This document shows positions 4,442-15,716 of a stretch of DNA of 16,890 bases, piece after piece; position 1 is the first letter of the stretch, and every line of letters starts with the position of its first letter. The notes beneath the pieces are model-generated. The model saw only the letters and a program-made list of their open reading frames with translations. It did no database searches and was not told the DNA's origin. The stretch comes from Thermoflexales bacterium (GTDB taxonomy: Bacteria; Chloroflexota; Anaerolineae; Fen-1058). Position numbers and translations under genes: made by a program. The stretch lies in the NCBI GenBank assembly GCA_030834835.1, contig JAUQXD010001091.1:1-16890 (forward strand), given 5' to 3'.

Positions 4442-4822
4442 ATGTCCCTATCGATCTTAGCCGTCGACGACGAGCCTTCCACACTCAAAATGCTGCGCTT
4501 GCTCCTCAAACTCAAACGGCCCGAGTGGACCTTCCATACCGCCGAGGATGGCCCACGGGCGTTGGATCTGGTCGCGAACCAGCCGGTGGATTGTGTGCTG
4601 CTGGATATTTCGATGCCGGGCATGGATGGTCTGGAAGTGTGCGAACGGATGCGCGCCCTGCCCAACATGGCCGCCGTGCCCATCGTGATCTTCACCGCGC
4701 TCGACACGCCCGATCGGCGCGAGAAGGCGGCGGCCGCCGGCGCGACGGCGTTCTGGATCAAGACGTTCCAAGCCACCGAGTTTGTGCCGGAGATCGAGAA
4801 ACTGGTGGCTCAGGCGAAGTGA
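4442..4822 (+). CDS. Stand-alone response-regulator receiver protein
   Basis: A 126-residue protein made of a single receiver (CheY-like) domain with no output domain. It should accept phosphate from a histidine kinase and act through protein contacts. Acidic pocket D9/D10 (VDDE), phosphoacceptor D55 (LLDISMPG), T85 (IFTA), the switch aromatic F104 and K107 are all present. The residue after K107 is Thr (IKTF), where most receivers have Pro. A GAGGT ribosome site lies 4 bases before the ATG. Being only 15 bases downstream of the cyclase suggests cotranscription and perhaps a shared pathway. No kinase is in the window. Confidence 0.93.
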   Translation: MSLSILAVDDEPSTLKMLRLLLKLKRPEWTFHTAEDGPRALDLVANQPVDCVLLDISMPGMDGLEVCERMRALPNMAAVPIVIFTALDTPDRREKAAAAGATAFWIKTFQATEFVPEIEKLVAQAK

Positions 4823-4890
4823 AAAGTGACGAGTAACGAGTGACGAATATCTCAACGATCGGCGCGCATGCCAATCGTCGAAGGACACTT

Positions 4891-5376
4891 ATGCACACCA
4901 ACGAGCAACTCATCGAACAGTTCTACAGCAGTTTCAGCCGGCGCGATTATGCCAGCATGATCGCCTGTTATGCGCCGACGATTCAGTTCTCCGATGAGGT
5001 ATTCACGCTGTCCGGCAAGGCCGCCGGGGCGATGTGGCACATGCTGTGCGAGAGCGGCACGGACCTGGCCGTCACCTTCAAGGACATCCACGCCGATGAC
5101 GCGCATGGCGCCCACGGCACGGCGCACTGGGAGGCGACCTACACCTTTTCGGCCTCCGGTCGCAAAGTCCACAACATCATCAATGCTGAGTTCGACTTCA
5201 GCAACGGCCAGATCGTCCGCCATCGCGATCGATTTGACTTCTGGCGCTGGTCGCGGCAGGCGCTCGGCCCGACCGGCCTGCTGTTGGGTTGGACTCCGTT
5301 CGTTCGGCGGAAAGTTCAATCTACTGCGGCCCGGCGTCTGGAGAAATTCATCGCGGCGCATCCGCAATACCAATAA
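4891..5376 (+). CDS. SnoaL-like / NTF2-fold protein
   Basis: A 161-residue protein with the pattern of the nuclear transport factor 2-like (SnoaL) fold: an N-terminal helix LIEQFYSSFSRRDYASMIACYAPTI, then an alternating beta pattern with HWEATYTFSASGRKV and a closing strand IVRHRDRFDFWRW. Members range from small-molecule isomerases to non-enzymatic binding proteins, so the substrate cannot be named. I chose 4891 because AAGGA lies 5 bases upstream; an earlier ATG at 4840 has no ribosome site and would add 17 unusual residues. It follows the receiver gene by 68 bases, a gap holding GTGACGAG-type short repeats, so it may or may not belong to the same transcript. Confidence 0.8.
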   Translation: MHTNEQLIEQFYSSFSRRDYASMIACYAPTIQFSDEVFTLSGKAAGAMWHMLCESGTDLAVTFKDIHADDAHGAHGTAHWEATYTFSASGRKVHNIINAEFDFSNGQIVRHRDRFDFWRWSRQALGPTGLLLGWTPFVRRKVQSTAARRLEKFIAAHPQYQ

Positions 5377-5428
5377 CGCCCTCGAGTTGGTGGGAGCATC
5401 GCCCACGGCCCAATTGACTTTACAATAA

Positions 5429-5711
5429 TGCCGGGGAAATCTCCCCGACGTCTGCGAGTCAACTCAAGCATGCCGGGGAAACTTCCCCGATACCGTCTGG
5501 TCTACATGGACAGGCGGGGAGATTGCCCCGATGTGTTCGAGTCAACTCAAGCAGGTCGGAGAAACTTCCCCGATACCGTCTGGTCTACCCAGACAGGCCG
5601 GGGAGATTGCCCCGACGCCTTCGAGTCAACTCAAATAGACTAGGGAAACTTCCCCGATACTGTCGGGGCTACGGAAGCAAATCGGGGGATTTTACCCCTG
5701 TTGGTGAAGCC
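5429..5711. repeat. Tandem array of about 42-bp hairpin units alternating in two forms
   Basis: Seven units begin at about 5429, 5471, 5513, 5554, 5596, 5638 and 5680. Each opens with a G4/C4 inverted repeat such as CGGGGA-AACT-TCCCCG (5474-5489). The symmetry centres are spaced 42, 41, 42, 42, 42 and 43 bases. The DNA between hairpins alternates: form A carries TTCGAGTCAACTCAAGCA-like sequence (units 1, 3, 5), form B carries ATACCGTCTGGTCTAC-like sequence (units 2, 4, 6). The basic duplication is therefore about 84 bp. Stems in units 4 and 6 are imperfect and unit 7 has lost the tail. The period is a multiple of three, so a 14-residue periodic peptide can be read in stretches, but there is no ribosome site and the 41-base unit shifts the frame. 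Confidence 0.85.
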
Positions 5712-5753
5712 AACCGCAGCCAGTCCCGGCTTGAACCAGAGTGTATAACCCGC

Positions 5754-5781
5754 TTGACGCGGATTGAGTTGGGGCTATACT
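5754..5781 (+). promoter_or_regulatory. Sigma-70 promoter for the DUF4238 gene
   Basis: TTGACG (5754-5759, 5 of 6 matches) and TATACT (5776-5781, 5 of 6) are separated by 16 bases. Transcription would start near 5788, leaving a leader of about 80 bases. It lies just after the hairpin array and gives the DUF4238 gene its own expression. Confidence 0.7.
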
Positions 5782-5867
5782 CCATTCACGATGTAAGTCG
5801 TTGGAAGGAATGCACTTCTCCCAATCAATAGTTGGCGATTTCGCTCTAGCTACAAACAGGTTCTTAA

Positions 5868-6806
5868 ATGTCCGCCCGACATCATTACATTCCCCAATTT
5901 TATCTCGAAGGTTTTGTTGACCCAGCTAGTAAGAAATCCTCAGCTAGGTCATTGGAACCATATCTTTGGGTTAGCGATTTGGAAAAGCTAACCATTAAGA
6001 AGCGGGCTCCCAAAAAAGCGGCACAATACACTGGCTATTATGATCTAGAGGGAACAGAGATAGAAGATAAGTCAATACTCGAAAAACATTTATCGGCTAT
6101 CGAGGGCTTAGCAGCGCCCATCATTCGCAAGTTGGGTAATCAGCAGTTTAAAATAACTACCGAGGAGCGGTTCCATTTCTCAAATTTCGTAGGACTTCAA
6201 CTCGGCAGAGTTCCAGCTACTCGCCGGGCGGTGGACGCCACGCTCAAGAAGCGCGCTCAAGAAATGCTTCGCGAGTATGCAATGGATGACGACAAACTAC
6301 AAGGTAAGCTTGGTGAAAAAGAGGACATTTTCAAGGATCTTGTGCTTTCAGGACAATTACTGCCTAGTCCGGGTAAAGATCTTGTTATAGCTTCCGCATT
6401 GAGGTTAGGACTCGAGATGGCAGAAATTATCTTCGCCATGAATTGGAGTTTTATACTTGCGCCCAGTGGATCTGCCTTCTTTACGTCTGATAATCCAGTA
6501 GGACTTCTGACTCCAGACGCGAAATCAGTAAAAATCAGGCGAGGAGAACTGAATCAGAGACTCGAAATTTCGTTTCCGCTTGTGCCTTCTTGTGCACTGC
6601 TTGCGCACATGTATCTCGAAATTCCCGATCTTGACGTTATATCCGTAAAAGTAGATGAAGTCATCGAAATGAACAGACGAGTTTTCCCTACAGTTCAACG
6701 ATGTGTTTATTGCTCAACAGAAGAACAGAGCAAATGGGTATTGACTCAGAACAAGAAGCGCACCGTTGATGAATTGCAGTCTCATCAAGCCAAGACCGCC
6801 CAATAA
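5868..6806 (+). CDS. DUF4238 family protein
   Basis: A 312-residue protein of unknown function. The N-terminal signature RHHYIPQFYLEGF (4-16) and the segment AFFTSDNPVGLL (203-214) with an upstream Trp (W193) are the marks of DUF4238. A mid segment HFSNFVGLQLGRVPATRR (103-120) also fits. No signal peptide or membrane segment is seen. The gene is visibly AT-richer than its neighbours, uses AT-ending codons freely and contains long A-runs, all signs of recent acquisition. It has its own promoter, an 80-base leader and only a weak ribosome site (AGG 8 bases before the ATG). Its stop codon overlaps the first core of an attC-like element, as in an integron cassette. Family likely; biochemical role unknown. 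Confidence 0.82.
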   Translation: MSARHHYIPQFYLEGFVDPASKKSSARSLEPYLWVSDLEKLTIKKRAPKKAAQYTGYYDLEGTEIEDKSILEKHLSAIEGLAAPIIRKLGNQQFKITTEERFHFSNFVGLQLGRVPATRRAVDATLKKRAQEMLREYAMDDDKLQGKLGEKEDIFKDLVLSGQLLPSPGKDLVIASALRLGLEMAEIIFAMNWSFILAPSGSAFFTSDNPVGLLTPDAKSVKIRRGELNQRLEISFPLVPSCALLAHMYLEIPDLDVISVKVDEVIEMNRRVFPTVQRCVYCSTEEQSKWVLTQNKKRTVDELQSHQAKTAQ

Positions 6807-6925
6807 TTCGTTACAGCGAACAGCGGCTTCGCCGTTCGGGGATGCGGCCAGCTGCCAGCAGACGAGTCTTTCAGAAAACAGTTTTGCGATTCACCCACCG
6901 CTGCCGCTGAACGCCAGCGTTGCGA
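6798..6925. repeat. Degenerate attC-like (integron cassette) element, tentative
   Basis: The element begins with GCCCAAT (6798-6804; the integron R'' core is RYYYAAC), which overlaps the DUF4238 stop codon, and ends with GTTGCGA (6919-6925; R' core GTTRRRY). Inside these ends, GCGAACAGCGGC (6816-6827) can pair with GCCGCTGAACGC (6903-6914) through 7+3 bp with an AA/AA internal loop. The length of 128 bases is in the range of long attC sites. The sequence right after the stop (NNSLQRT if read through) is of a kind I recall at cassette ends. Both cores deviate from consensus, so it may be a decayed site or another palindromic element. Confidence 0.4.
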
Positions 6926-6931
6926 ACATAC

Positions 6932-6963
6932 CAAAAGCGGCGCACTCGATTTGAGTGCGCCGC
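6932..6963 (-). terminator. Intrinsic terminator of gyrA
   Basis: On the minus strand, GCGGCGCACTC (6953-6963) and GAGTGCGCCGC (6937-6947) form a perfect 11-bp stem with a 5-base loop. The stem is followed by TTTT (6933-6936) and begins 5 bases after the gyrA stop codon. Confidence 0.88.
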
Positions 6964-6968
6964 ATCGT

Positions 6969-9602
6969 TTACTTTGCTTTGACTTTCGCTTTAGTCTTCG
7001 CCTTAACCGGAGGTTTCTTTCTTTCTACCTTCTCCGGCTTGTCCTTCTTCGCCGCCCTCGGCGGCGTCGCGCCGAGTAACTCCAGCTGCTTTGGCTCAGG
7101 CGCAGCCTCCACTGTCTCCGGCGCATCGATGCGCATCTGCGGTTTGACCAGCGCCGCGACGATCTCGTTCTTGAGGACGTGCTGCACGCCGTAGCCGCCT
7201 GTCGCACGCCCTAGACTCTTGAACAACTTGCCCTTGATCAATTTCGTCCGGCCACGCGAAGTCGTGAGCGCCACATCGTCTTTCGGCGCGACGATGGCGA
7301 AGCCCGCCACCGCATCGCCGCCTGCGATCTTGATACCGATCACGCCCTGCCCTGCGCGCCCCTGCCGGGGATATTCGCTCAATGGCGAACGCTTGCCCAC
7401 GCCCTGCTCCGTGATGATGGCGGCCTCTTGCTCCTCGGCGACGATGTCCGCGGCCACGACCACATCTTCATTCACCAGCTTAATGCCCGCCACGCCGCCC
7501 GCGTTGAAGCCCATCGGGCGCACGTCTTCCTCGATGAAGCGAATGGCCTGACCGCGCGCCGTGACCAGCATCACTTCGCCTTCACCCGCCGTCACGCGCA
7601 CCGACACAATCGCGTCGTCGTCGGTCACGTTCATCACGCTGAACGTACCAAAGGACTTCGCCAGATCGGCCAGCGTCACGCGCTTCACCACGCCCAGGCG
7701 CGTCGCCATGAACAGATAGCCCGGTAATTCAGGCTTATCCAGCGGCAGCGCCAACAGCGAAACGATGCGCTGGCCGCTGGGCACGCCCACCACATCGGCG
7801 GCGGGCATGGCCTGATCGGACAGTTGATGCACCCCGATCATGCCCGCCTGGCCCATCTCCGTAATCGCCACGAGGTTGTCGCGCATATCGGCATGCAATA
7901 TCGCCGATGGGGCCTTCTCCTCGATCAGGGTGAGTTCTTCGCTGGTGCGCAACAGCATGCCGTCTTCGTAAGCCGCCACCCAGGCCGCGCCGCTCTCCAC
8001 CAGATCGTGCGCAGTGATGACCTCGCCCTTGCCCAACTGCGACTCGACGATCTGCGTGCGGCGGGCGTCGCCGAACTTCTCTTTCAGTTGCAGCGTCTCG
8101 GCCTTGATCACGCCCAGAATCTTTTTCTCGTCCGCCAGCAGGTCTTCCAGCGACTTGATCAGCGCCTTCTTTTCCTTGTACTCGGCTTCGATCTTTTCGC
8201 GCTCCAGTTTCGCCAGTCGCCGCAACGGCATGTCGAGGATGGCGTTGGCCTGAATCTCGCTCAGCTTGAAGCGCTTCATCAAGCCTTCGCGGGCCTCATC
8301 GCCATTCGCGCTGCGGCGGATCAGGCGGATGACTTCATCCAGATTCGCCAGCGCCTTGAGCAAGCCTTCCAGAATATGCGCGCGTTCTCTGGCGCGGGCC
8401 AGATCATATTCGCTGCGCCGCCGCACGATCACCTGGCGGTGCTCGACGAAGATTTGCAGCATGCGCTTCAACGGCAGCAAGCGCGGCTCACCGTCGACCA
8501 GCGCCAGGTTGATGATGCCGAAGGTCGTTTGCATGGGCGTGTGCTTGTACAACAAACCCAGAATCGATTTCGGATCAGTTACTGTGCGGCTCAACTCGAT
8601 GATGATGCGCATGCCCGATCGGTCTGATTCGTCCCGCAGGTCCGTGATGCCTTCGATCTTGCCGTCGCGCACCAGATCGGCAATGCGCTCGATCAGGCTG
8701 CTCTTGTTGACCTGATACGGCAGTTCGGTGACGATGATGCGACTCTTGCCGCGCTCAGCCTCTTCGATGAAGGCCCGGGCCTGCAATGTCACGCGCCCGC
8801 GCCCGGTGGCATACGCCGCGCGAATGGCGTCGCCGCCCTCGACGGCTTCGTTGTAGCGGAACATCAAACCGCCGGTGGGGAAGTCCGGGCCTTTGATGTG
8901 ATTCATCAAATCGTCCACCGAGACTCGATCGATCTTCTCCCACCGACCGATCAGATACGCGATCGCGTCGCAGACTTCGCTCAGATTATGGGGAGCGATA
9001 TTCGTCGCCATGCCCACGGCGATGCCGGACGCGCCGTTGACCAGCAGATTCGGCACGGTGCTGGGCAGCACCAGCGGCTCTTTGAGGGTGCCGTCGAAGT
9101 TGTCGCCAAACTCGACGGTGTTCTTCTCGATGTCGGACAACAGGCTGGCCGATAACGGCGCGAGGCGGGCTTCGGTATACCGCATCGCGGCGGGGGCGTC
9201 GCCGTCCACCGATCCGAAGTTGCCCTGCCCGTCGACCAGCAGGTTGCGCATGGAAAAGTCCTGCGCCATGCGCGCCATCGCGTCGTATACGGCGGCGTCG
9301 CCGTGCGGGTGATACTTGCCCAGCACCTCGCCCACGATACGGGCTGATTTCTTGTAGGCCGTATTAGGCTGCAAGCCCATATCGTGCATCGCGTACAGGA
9401 TGCGGCGGTGCACCGGCTTCAGGCCGTCGCGGGCGTCGGGCAGTGCCCGCGCCACGATCACACTCATGGCGTAGGACAGATACGCCTGCTGCATCTCGTG
9501 ATCGATGTCGATCGGGCGGATGAGGCCGAATTCGGTGACGGTCGCTTCCAGACCGTTATTGTTATCGTTACTTGATTGAGGTGCGGACTTACGTCGGGCC
9601 AT
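6969..9602 (-). CDS. gyrA: DNA gyrase subunit A
   Basis: The 877-residue A subunit of DNA gyrase (type IIA topoisomerase), which cuts and rejoins DNA and with GyrB introduces negative supercoils. Catalytic Tyr142 is in [29 protein letters not shown] (41-60) and [12 protein letters not shown] (96-107) are the classic N-terminal motifs. The beta-pinwheel C-terminal domain carries a degenerate GyrA box, QGRAGQG, within [12 protein letters not shown] (near 748-760). A lysine-rich tail ([11 protein letters not shown]) ends the protein. Residue 103, equivalent to E. coli Ser83 in the quinolone-determining region, is Ala, while Asp107 (E. coli Asp87) is kept. The start has AGGA 6 bases upstream and a good promoter. 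gyrB is not adjacent in this window. The GyrA box favours gyrase over topoisomerase IV. Confidence 0.96.
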
Positions 9603-13375: not shown

Positions 13376-14471
13376 TGTAGCGCCGCTGCTGGTGGCGAAT
13401 TTTTCGGGCGTCAGCACGTATACGCAGCAATTGCTGGAGGCGCTGCTGACCCGCGCGGACGATCGACAGTATGTGCCGCTGGCGCATCGCGCCGTCAATG
13501 GCCAGGTACCGAAGGGCGCCGCCGCGCCGATCGGGCAGCCGTATCAACGCCGCGGGTGGTGGATGCAGATGATCGCGCCGAAGTTGCTGGCGGACTTACG
13601 CCCCTCTTTCGCGCATTTCACCAACTCGATCGCGCCGCTGGCGAGTCCGGTGCCGGTGGTGCTGACCATCCACGATATGTCGCTGTTCGTGCAGGCGCGC
13701 ACGCAGCCGCTGCGCAGTCTGATCACAGTGCGACCGATTATGCCGACGGCGGCCCGACGGGCGGCGGCCATCATCACAGTCTCACAGCATGCGCGCCAGG
13801 CTATGATCCGGTTGATGAAGATCGATCCGGCGAAAGTGCACGTGGTCTATAACGCGCCCGCGACCCGCTTCAAGCCGGTGACGGACAGTGACAAACTCGA
13901 TCGGGTGCGGCGGCAATACGCGCTCCCGGCGACGTTTGTGTTGTATGTGGGCACGTTTGAGCCGCGCAAGAACATCCCGCGTTTGCTGCGCGCCTTCGCG
14001 CAAGTGCGGCGCGCTCGCCCCGATGTGCGGCTGGTGATGGCGGGTCAACTGGGCTGGAAGCATCGCGCCATCTGGCAGGCGATCGAGTCGCTGGGATTGG
14101 CTGACGCGGTGCAATGGCTGGGCTACGTGCCCGCCTGCGATCTGCCCGCGCTGTATTCGCAGGCGACAGCGTTGGCGTTTCCGTCGCTGTACGAAGGCTT
14201 CGGTCTGCCCGTGAGCGAGTCAATGGCCTGCGGCACGCCCGTGCTCACGTCGCAGTGCTCGGCCCTGTCCGAGGTAGCCGGTGACGCGGCGCTGCTGATC
14301 GATCCGCTGGAGGTGGACACCATCGCCGCTGGGTTGATTCGTCTGCTGGATGACTCCGCGCTGCGCGATGAGTTGCGGGCGCGCGGACTGTGTCGAGCAG
14401 GAGAATTTTCATGGGCGCGGGCGGCAGCGGAGACGGTGAAGGTGTATGAGCAAGTGATGGGTGATGCGTGA
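13353..14471 (+). CDS. Glycosyltransferase, family 4 (GT-B fold)
   Basis: A 372-residue retaining glycosyltransferase. The N-terminal Rossmann-like half begins VIGFDVAPLLVANFSGVSTY and has TIHDMSLF and ITVSQHARQ. The C-terminal nucleotide-sugar-binding half has FVLYVGTFEPRKNIPRLL (R205, K206 near the donor phosphates), WLGYVP, and EGFGLPVSESMACGTPV with the E281-x7-E289 pair. It is expected to add a sugar from a nucleotide donor to a growing lipid-linked glycan; donor and acceptor are unknown. The start is ATG 13353 with GGGGGT 7 bases upstream; GTG 13344 is possible. The frame overlaps the ligase 3' end, so the three genes form one operon. Confidence 0.93.
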   Translation: MTQVIGFDVAPLLVANFSGVSTYTQQLLEALLTRADDRQYVPLAHRAVNGQVPKGAAAPIGQPYQRRGWWMQMIAPKLLADLRPSFAHFTNSIAPLASPVPVVLTIHDMSLFVQARTQPLRSLITVRPIMPTAARRAAAIITVSQHARQAMIRLMKIDPAKVHVVYNAPATRFKPVTDSDKLDRVRRQYALPATFVLYVGTFEPRKNIPRLLRAFAQVRRARPDVRLVMAGQLGWKHRAIWQAIESLGLADAVQWLGYVPACDLPALYSQATALAFPSLYEGFGLPVSESMACGTPVLTSQCSALSEVAGDAALLIDPLEVDTIAAGLIRLLDDSALRDELRARGLCRAGEFSWARAAAETVKVYEQVMGDA

Positions 14472-14661
14472 CGAGTGAATTAGCGTGAAATGCGGCGGGG
14501 AGTCAATCTACTCCGCAATCAAAGGGCGGTGGACGCCCGTCGATGCGCCGGTATCGCGAGGCCGCAGTTGTTCGACCGTCATGCCCGAATGCTTCTGTCG
14601 GGCATCCAAATCGACCATTGGCGAAGCGCGTCAACGCGGAAGGCGAAGCAAGGACAAGAGT
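14472..14661. other. Hairpin-rich intergenic region after the polysaccharide operon
   Basis: No gene is supported. Hairpins seen: GGGCG/CGCCC (14524-14538) and a perfect 8-bp ATGCCCGA/TCGGGCAT (14581-14605, 9-base loop). Short open frames on either strand lack ribosome sites. The stretch may be the untranslated 3' end of the operon or a cluster of dispersed palindromic repeats. It leads into the strong terminator at 14662. Confidence 0.45.
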
Positions 14662-14723: not shown

Positions 14724-14825
14724 GCTGCACAGTGCATGCTGCGGTGTTGTAAGTGAAAGCATCGCTGGCTGGCACACAGGGCGTTGGGCGCACGCCAAAC
14801 GTTGCTCAAAGTAAAGGACGATAAA

Positions 14826-15716
14826 ATGCCTCTCACTTATACTGTTTCGCAAGTCAGCCATATCCTCGACGCATACAAAAGTCTTTTCCCTTCGACAGAA
14901 GGGGAATTGGAAAATTACTGGGACTATGGGCGGACGCGTACGTGGTCATGCCTTACCACGAACTTTCACAAGATTGGCATTGAAACAATACAATCCTTCG
15001 ATGCAGCAGTGCGACAAATCGATGTCGCTGGATTGTCACATCAAAGGCTCGGGGAGCGCTTCAAAGATCTCTCTCGTCAATACAAAGTGGGCTACAGCCT
15101 GGGAATCTCACCCTGGACTGACGACTTGCTGTTGCAGACTTTTAGCGAGAAAACGAAATTTGTGGTCATCATTCTTGGACACGATTGGTATCCCATCGTC
15201 ACCAACTCAAAGGGTAAACCTCGTCCCCCTGACTCGCCACTCCAGCGATGCGCGATTTCTGATAGCCCAGTGTATAAAGACGCTATCCCGAATTCTCTTT
15301 ACGCAGTGGAAAATTGCGCGATACTGTTTATGAATCTCTACCCGGACTTCCGTCCACCTGATAGCCCCAAAACTGGACCGCTGGGTGATTACGGTGAATG
15401 GGCTAAGGGCCTTGAGGCTGTCTGCAAATCAATCTCGCAACAATATTGTGTGGTTAGCGTAATTTCCTGGGGAGGGCACGTTTGGGAAGCTCTCAGAAGC
15501 AAATTAGACACAGAATGGCAACAACTAGGAATCATGGCGGCAGTTGACCGTCAATATAAACACGAGCAAGGCGCGCCAACTGACTTGCATTTGGGAGGGA
15601 CGAACATCCCATACTACGCCTTCGCCCATCCGTCGTTTGCGACGAACTTCAAAAAAGAGTCGCATTGGAAAGCATACGAAACAGCTATGAATAAGCTAGT
15701 TTTGTCGTTGACTTAA
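14826..15716 (+). CDS. Putative divergent uracil-DNA glycosylase superfamily protein
   Basis: A 296-residue cytosolic protein without a family I can name for certain. From about residue 112 its motifs follow the order and spacing of uracil-DNA glycosylase: FVVIILGHDWYP (112-123) where UDG has VVILGQDPYH, keeping Asp120 and Tyr122; CAILFMN (164-170) where UDG has GVLLLN, keeping Asn170; SWGGHVWEAL (214-223) where UDG has WGkxA; and HPS (268-270) at the place of the HPSPLS loop, keeping His268. The first 110 residues are unlike UDG. The DNA is AT-richer and nearly lacks GATC, unlike the resident genes, suggesting acquisition. AGGA lies 7 bases before the ATG at 14826; a longer start at 14784 lacks this. 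It has its own promoter. Fold assignment is inference; the substrate could differ from uracil-DNA. Confidence 0.55.
   Translation: MPLTYTVSQVSHILDAYKSLFPSTEGELENYWDYGRTRTWSCLTTNFHKIGIETIQSFDAAVRQIDVAGLSHQRLGERFKDLSRQYKVGYSLGISPWTDDLLLQTFSEKTKFVVIILGHDWYPIVTNSKGKPRPPDSPLQRCAISDSPVYKDAIPNSLYAVENCAILFMNLYPDFRPPDSPKTGPLGDYGEWAKGLEAVCKSISQQYCVVSVISWGGHVWEALRSKLDTEWQQLGIMAAVDRQYKHEQGAPTDLHLGGTNIPYYAFAHPSFATNFKKESHWKAYETAMNKLVLSLT

Follow-up and report, generated by a model that had tools for sequence, protein, structure and literature searches.

A single-locus array of 42-bp palindromic units with an alternating two-unit pattern, upstream of a DUF4238 gene in a Thermoflexales genome

The window analysed here is a contig of 16,890 nucleotides (JAUQXD010001091.1, assembly GCA_030834835.1) from a Thermoflexales bacterium, and its GyrA sequence places it near Thermoflexales MAGs (79% to JAUQXC010000590). 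The region of interest carries, on the plus strand, a gene for a receiver-domain protein (4442 to 4822; PF00072), a gene for a SnoaL_2-like protein (4891 to 5376; PF12680, E = 1.5e-12), a tandem array of short palindromic units and a gene for a DUF4238 protein (5868 to 6806), followed by gyrA on the minus strand (6969 to 9602). The array is placed outside the genes, between the SnoaL-like stop at 5376, which lies 55 bases before unit 1, and the DUF4238 start at 5868. A 102-aa open frame that overlaps the array (5523 to 5831) was taken as a chance occurrence.

The orthologue of the receiver gene adjoins gyrA in two relatives, G002 (locus L033) and G004 (locus L035), where the two genes are convergent neighbours with about 280 and 250 bases between match ends; the gyrA gene of the window is 79-80% identical to theirs over long segments. 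In the window, the receiver gene and gyrA are separated by about 2.1 kb, made up of the SnoaL-like gene, the array and the DUF4238 gene, and this block is absent from the corresponding interval in both of these informative relatives, which belong to one genus. G003 has the two genes split between contigs, and G001 gave a partial gyrA-like match only, with no receiver neighbour shown. A search for the SnoaL-like gene in four relatives, three from the family and one from the class, gave no match. Because the block is missing in relatives, the SnoaL-like gene is without a match and the DUF4238 gene is rare and low in G+C, comparison of the sequences suggests that the extra block was most likely acquired, in whole or in part. 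Since the array lies inside this block, it more likely arrived or arose with it than attracted the acquired DNA, as the first-pass annotation of the array had envisaged among other roles.

The DUF4238 protein (312 aa) is a candidate anti-phage protein, matched by PF14022 (E = 9.7e-37), its only Pfam match, and by the PADLOC model DUF4238-Pers (E = 7.7e-9). The G+C content of its gene is low, about 0.42-0.49. PF14022 is present in 6 of 249 genomes of the class, this one included, and at E ≤ 1e-8 the protein itself found a match in one of 400 genomes of the phylum, namely its own, and in none of the 399 others. The closest homologue, P0002 on a 39-kb contig, shares 65% identity, and among viral proteins Stenotrophomonas phage Smp131 supplied one strong match, V9IQH5 (E = 2.2e-10). 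In a set of 40 sequences, H6, P9, Y12 and T206-S207-D208-x-P210 are among the columns that do not vary. The structure model is confident (pLDDT 91.6) and found no fold match in the PDB at E ≤ 0.001. A passage of a study of E. coli phage hotspots (PMC9122126) reports strong resistance to T7 from a single cloned DUF4238 protein. A comparable array was observed at none of 11 other DUF4238 loci, one of which (L124) has a sequence that covers almost nothing upstream. In the window, a weak sigma-70-like promoter (TTGACG-16-TATACT, 10 of 12 matches, plus strand, 5754 to 5781) can be proposed upstream of the gene, in a region (4800 to 7000) where two such promoter-like sites were found against 1.8 expected, no more than by chance. 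The last unit of the array, unit 7, ends 29 bases before this site and 143 bases before the DUF4238 start.

The array is composed of six clear units (5432 to 5682) and a diverged seventh, with a period of 41-42 bp; TRF resolves it both as 42 bp x 5.5 and as 83 bp x 2.9, with scores of 144 and 319. Each unit opens with a 16-bp imperfect palindrome near CGGGGAAAYTTCCCCG and continues with one of two alternating linkers, type A in unit 1 (5432 to 5473), unit 3 (5515 to 5556) and unit 5 (5599 to 5640), and type B in unit 2 (5474 to 5514), unit 4 (5557 to 5598) and unit 6 (5641 to 5682), all given on the plus strand. Unit 2 is shorter by one base, and the six clear units show a single 1-base indel. 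The inverted repeats are centred at 5439.5, 5481.5, 5522.5, 5564.5, 5606.5 and 5648.5, with a looser one at 5691.5, at successive intervals of 42, 41, 42, 42, 42 and 43 bases. The 16-mer palindrome pattern matched 14 times in the window, 12 of them within the array, against 1.17 expected, and none of 200 shuffles reached 14; a chance occurrence of the pattern is therefore excluded. Of the seven regular G4/C4 hairpins first described, the inverted repeats and their 41-43 spacing are thus real, and not all seven are good hairpins. Over the six outer pairs of the stem, the palindrome of unit 4 contains one A-C mismatch, the decayed left arm of unit 6 gives T-G and A-C, the sixth pair reads A-G in units 3 and 5, and unit 7 has diverged.

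The limits of the array are less sharply defined than its core. Unit 7 (5683 to 5724, plus strand) is in register though diverged, with a z of 4.3 against the six-unit profile, a score equalled by 2 of the 16,409 other 42-mers of the window, and its linker alone gives p = 0.018. A very diverged dyad, GTGGGAGCATCGCCCA, followed by a linker, forms a tentative unit 0 (5390 to 5431, plus strand; in-register profile z 2.9, p = 0.003), the score of which is equalled by 35 of 16,409 other 42-mers. A covariance model built on the six clear units did not report unit 0 or unit 7 when E values up to 10 were admitted. The array probably extends to 5724, with unit 7, and perhaps starts at 5390, with unit 0.

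The two linkers had been read as unrelated sequences, and the unit of duplication accordingly as about 84 bp. Compared in register, type A and type B linkers share on average 13.6 of 26 positions, against 6.45 ± 1.7 in 20,000 column shuffles (p = 1e-4), and none of the other circular registers, of 26 in all, exceeds 9.44 matches. The gapped local alignment score supports the relationship more weakly (p = 0.034), and a MAFFT alignment of the six units keeps this register, with no inner gaps. Of the 25-26 linker bases, 15-22 are shared between units of one type and 11-16 between units of different type. A and B consequently go back to one linker from which both have diverged, so that 42 bp is the basic unit and the alternation reflects a higher-order repeat of two units, with 84 bp as its period. 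As far as can be judged from these alignments, the array would descend most simply from one 42-bp unit, two-unit blocks of which were duplicated later to give the 84-bp pattern. Additional dyads inside the linkers, with a 21-bp spacing (A at 5460.5, 5543.5 and 5627.5; B at 5586), were considered as a second phased set and counted as incidental, because the A and B linkers are homologous and yet the centres and arms of these dyads differ. As for helical phasing, chance alone would bring a length to within half a base of an integral number of turns roughly once in seven to ten, by estimate. The agreement of 42 bp with four turns at 10.5 bp stands; the argument drawn from it is weaker than was stated, since tandem copies inherit one repeat length, so that the spacing is regular and the information on phasing is carried by one length only, not by six intervals. 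Both the alternation and the phasing have a simpler origin than was first supposed.

Within this single array, conservation from unit to unit is highest in the columns of the palindrome arms. When the three 84-bp units are compared, variable columns number 6 of 44 in the dyads and the core of the A linker and 20 of 40 in the remainder (Fisher p = 0.0004). Inclusion of the B hairpin changes the figures to 13 of 61 and 13 of 23 (p = 0.003), and 3 of 84 circular placements of the mask of dyads and A-linker core, the real one included, do as well. Across the six 42-bp units, mean pairwise identity is 0.90 in the ten arm columns and 0.62 in all others (permutation p = 0.002); the right arm does not vary, and the left arm reaches 0.80. 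Extending the test to all 16 stem columns gives a permutation p of 0.009 and puts the stem window in third place among 42 circular windows. These tests, on 84-bp and 42-bp units alike, were chosen after the data had been seen and draw on only six units, and gene conversion could also produce such a pattern. Conservation of the arms is not accompanied by covariation: four of the 36 cells of the six-pair stem in the six units are unpaired, the pairing of the left arm is lost in units 4 and 6, and no pair is altered on both sides. Only if loop columns are counted too does such a case appear, at columns 7 and 10, which read A-C in unit 1 and G-T in units 3 and 5. The covariation of stems that the first-pass annotation proposed to look for across copies is thus missing among the six units. 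Uncompensated mismatches are more in keeping with a DNA site than with an RNA stem, and the absence of compensatory change argues against selection on an RNA hairpin, not against a DNA site.

The source genome (6.48 Mb in 1452 contigs, 90.7% complete) and its relatives were searched for further copies, as had been suggested. The array was found once in its own genome, whether by DNA search, by a 19-mer with up to three mismatches or by the covariance model. It was found neither in 40 relatives by DNA search nor in 395 other genomes of the class by DNA search, a two-dyad pattern and the covariance model. A 168-bp DNA search against 396 class genomes at E ≤ 0.01, with two candidates scored per genome, gave eight genomes, its own and seven with single matches of 20-29 bp; six of the latter fall inside stop-to-stop open frames of at least 618 nt and the seventh (L158) where two long frames meet. 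With the covariance model, for which 16 candidates were scored per genome under stricter filters, the six units of the array scored 45.0-55.8 bits and the best match elsewhere in the 396 genomes 25.3 bits. At a per-genome E ≤ 1, 296 of the 396 genomes were matched, about as the rough E-values would give. The own genome had nine matches, and all eight among the matches listed fall in the array, and 14 weaker loci (L215-L228) showed no such array. The two-dyad pattern matched three of the 396 class genomes, its own, G317 and G004. The G317 match (L113), an exact 2 x 40-bp repeat, and the four listed matches of G004, at two places, were judged unrelated by their other linkers; TRF detected no array at one G004 locus (L114) and only a 12-bp one elsewhere at the other (L118). 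The L113 repeat contains the palindrome GGGGATAATTCCCC, with a similar layout and a different sequence. The array had no blastn match in 72,556 plasmid records, three DNA patterns had no match each in viral contigs, and nothing was found in it by Rfam at E ≤ 1.

In the own genome, the 19-mer with up to three mismatches matched 39 times, against 9 for the backward control genome-wide. Nine of these matches lie in the array and 30 on other contigs, where two have two mismatches, 28 have three and none has fewer than two; the two closer ones sit in long open frames. Near the starts of contigs C517 (121-139) and C1136 (3-21), one 19-mer, CGGGGAAATGTCCCCAATC, was noted in both, perhaps a dispersed repeat that broke the assembly. 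TRF on 40 other contigs of this genome (322 kb with the window included, of 6.48 Mb) gave no second array with a period of at least 30 and at least 2.5 copies; the nearest candidate is a 159-bp x 2.4 tandem repeat (L182, 11111-11484) that reaches the end of contig C499. Short degenerate repeats are frequent in these contigs, some with short internal complementarity. Those of the GATTGGTAA type, with a short period, recur in the genome (L205, 860-975, and also L176, L183 and L187), several in gaps without long open frames. The array is real, found at a single locus in these searches and known from one genome. Of the outcomes that the first-pass annotation had set against its own reading, absence from the relatives searched and the lack of compensatory changes were both observed, and randomly spaced copies elsewhere were not found.

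The explanation placed first, though held only tentatively, is that of an array built by local duplication within an acquired block, the 16-bp dyads of which are candidate sites for a dimeric protein and together would form a multi-site operator or nucleoprotein platform. It starts from what was observed: the 42-bp unit, its higher-order pairing, a single locus in the searches made, the extra block, and dyads more conserved than the rest among the units. Local duplication would have produced 42-bp units first and 84-bp pairs later. A putative dimeric DNA-binding protein would then occupy the dyads cooperatively, the multiplied dyads would serve as operator or platform upstream of the promoter-like site, and the bound protein may control DUF4238, its presumed target. 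The protein-binding role proposed at the outset keeps its standing through the arms, the most conserved part of the unit, and through a unit of four helical turns, with a phasing argument weaker than claimed. Against it, no cognate protein was found, nor were dispersed dyads in the own genome, where matches outside the window contig all have at least two mismatches; the lack of such an array at the 11 other DUF4238 loci and the chance-level promoter-like site count against it too.

A functionless minisatellite is nearly as likely: slippage or unequal crossing-over would have multiplied a 42-bp stretch with a palindrome inside a non-coding gap, and the array would now be decaying at its ends. 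Diverged end units are a known sign of tandem arrays, and the most diverged units are found here at the ends (unit 7, perhaps unit 0). The array occupies a single locus and was not found in the relatives searched, and the left arms of units 4 and 6 are losing their pairing. Prokaryotic satellites, as presented in passages of Subirana and Messeguer 2019 (PMC6749651), are likewise local, short, head-to-tail, non-coding tandem arrays of one lineage, and a member of the phylum, Chloroflexus aurantiacus, is among the genomes listed there as satellite-rich, with 76 satellites, or 14.4 per Mb as the columns were read. The abundance of satellites in at least one representative of the phylum and the decay of two left arms are the reasons why this explanation is rated so close to the preceding one. 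The conserved palindrome and the alternating higher-order unit set the array apart from the satellites of those passages; variation is uneven along the unit, with the dyads spared, and the outcome of the TRF survey of the 40 other contigs also counts against a neutral origin. A structured non-coding RNA, either a repeat RNA acting with DUF4238 in the manner of type III toxin-antitoxin systems or an RNA of the minus strand, appears unlikely. Type III systems have a transcriptional terminator between the repeats and the toxin gene, and their repeat RNA is a pseudoknot that the toxin cuts. No terminator-like site was found on the plus strand between 5711 and 5868, a weak one being present on the minus strand (5449-5430), in favour of an RNA. 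The placement of the tandem repeats, immediately before a defence-type gene, does recall ToxIN and CptIN, whose direct repeats (36 bases in ToxI, 45 nt in CptI) precede the gene and whose loci can give phage resistance, according to passages of PMC4627078, a plasmid table of which names "repeats and terminator". The partner differs, the units are palindromic, and neither Pfam, with PF14022 only, nor the PDB comparison points to a toxin of the ToxN, CptN or TenpN family at the locus. Fold energy is below that of shuffles on both strands (z -4.8 plus, -7.7 minus), as is expected of repeated palindromes. Isolated 28-nt pieces form hairpins of -4.9 to -13.8 kcal/mol; in the fold of the whole array, local stems are mostly outcompeted by pairing between units, and none exceeds a probability of 0.35 apart from that of plus-strand unit 4 (up to 0.76). 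These weak local stems, the absence of any compensated pair (6 pairs x 6 units), the lack of an Rfam match and the lack of such repeats at the 11 other DUF4238 loci all count against an RNA of local hairpins, one of the roles suggested originally.

Two known classes of repeated palindromes resemble the array more in form than in setting. According to passages of PMC9178275, the F-plasmid centromere sopC (parS_F) is made of 43-bp repeats, twelve in number, in each of which a ParB dimer binds a 16-bp inverted repeat; the tandem units measure about four helical turns and carry one dyad each. The units here, of 42, 41, 42, 42, 42 and 42 bp with 16-bp dyads, are formally very similar, and the array could be seen as the partition site of an integrated plasmid, now a relic. 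This origin is nevertheless very improbable. The array is not filed as a centromere because the SopB HTH domain PF18090, the only ParB-type family searched, was not found in the own genome (90.7% complete), by a search that detected it, among 14 control genomes, in E. coli. Moreover, no parA or parB family was found among the 10 window proteins scanned and no sopA or sopB adjoins the array, the neighbours are chromosomal (receiver, SnoaL-like, DUF4238, gyrA), the array had no match among the plasmid records, and there are 6-8 units instead of 12, with a two-unit higher-order pattern. A cluster of mobile palindromes of the REP/BIME type, which are also short, G+C-rich, extragenic and grouped, is less credible still. 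REPs are described as high-copy in a genome in a passage of PMC3733652, whereas the array is found at one locus, with no dispersed family found and with 25.3 bits for the next best match elsewhere, so that a REP cluster is not supported. The 30 weak 19-mer matches outside the window contig, against 9 for the control, bear on this reading, as does the tag of these elements, GTAG or CGTC at one end: in units 1, 2 and 4, and not in 3, 5 and 6, a CGTC starts 2-5 bases beyond the dyad on its 3' side. A more specific proposal, doubtful even though compatible with the likeness to sopC, is that the array would be a dedicated multi-dyad platform of the DUF4238 anti-phage gene, with a silencing or sensing role, extended by higher-order duplication and moved together with the gene.

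If the dyads bind a protein, the array would act as a switch for a family of anti-phage genes and would show, in a bacterium, how higher-order repeats evolve around a binding site that is conserved. A neutral array would instead provide a compact example of a 42-bp satellite gaining an alternating pattern, and of how such an alternation can be mistaken for two unrelated linkers and a designed helical phasing. Elsewhere in the window, a 310-aa open frame (14784-15716) that has no match in Pfam, NCBIfam or PADLOC is perhaps a second acquired gene, and runs of AGTGACG/AGTGATG-like 7-mers are found at 4825-4846, the left edge of the extra block, and at 14453-14478.
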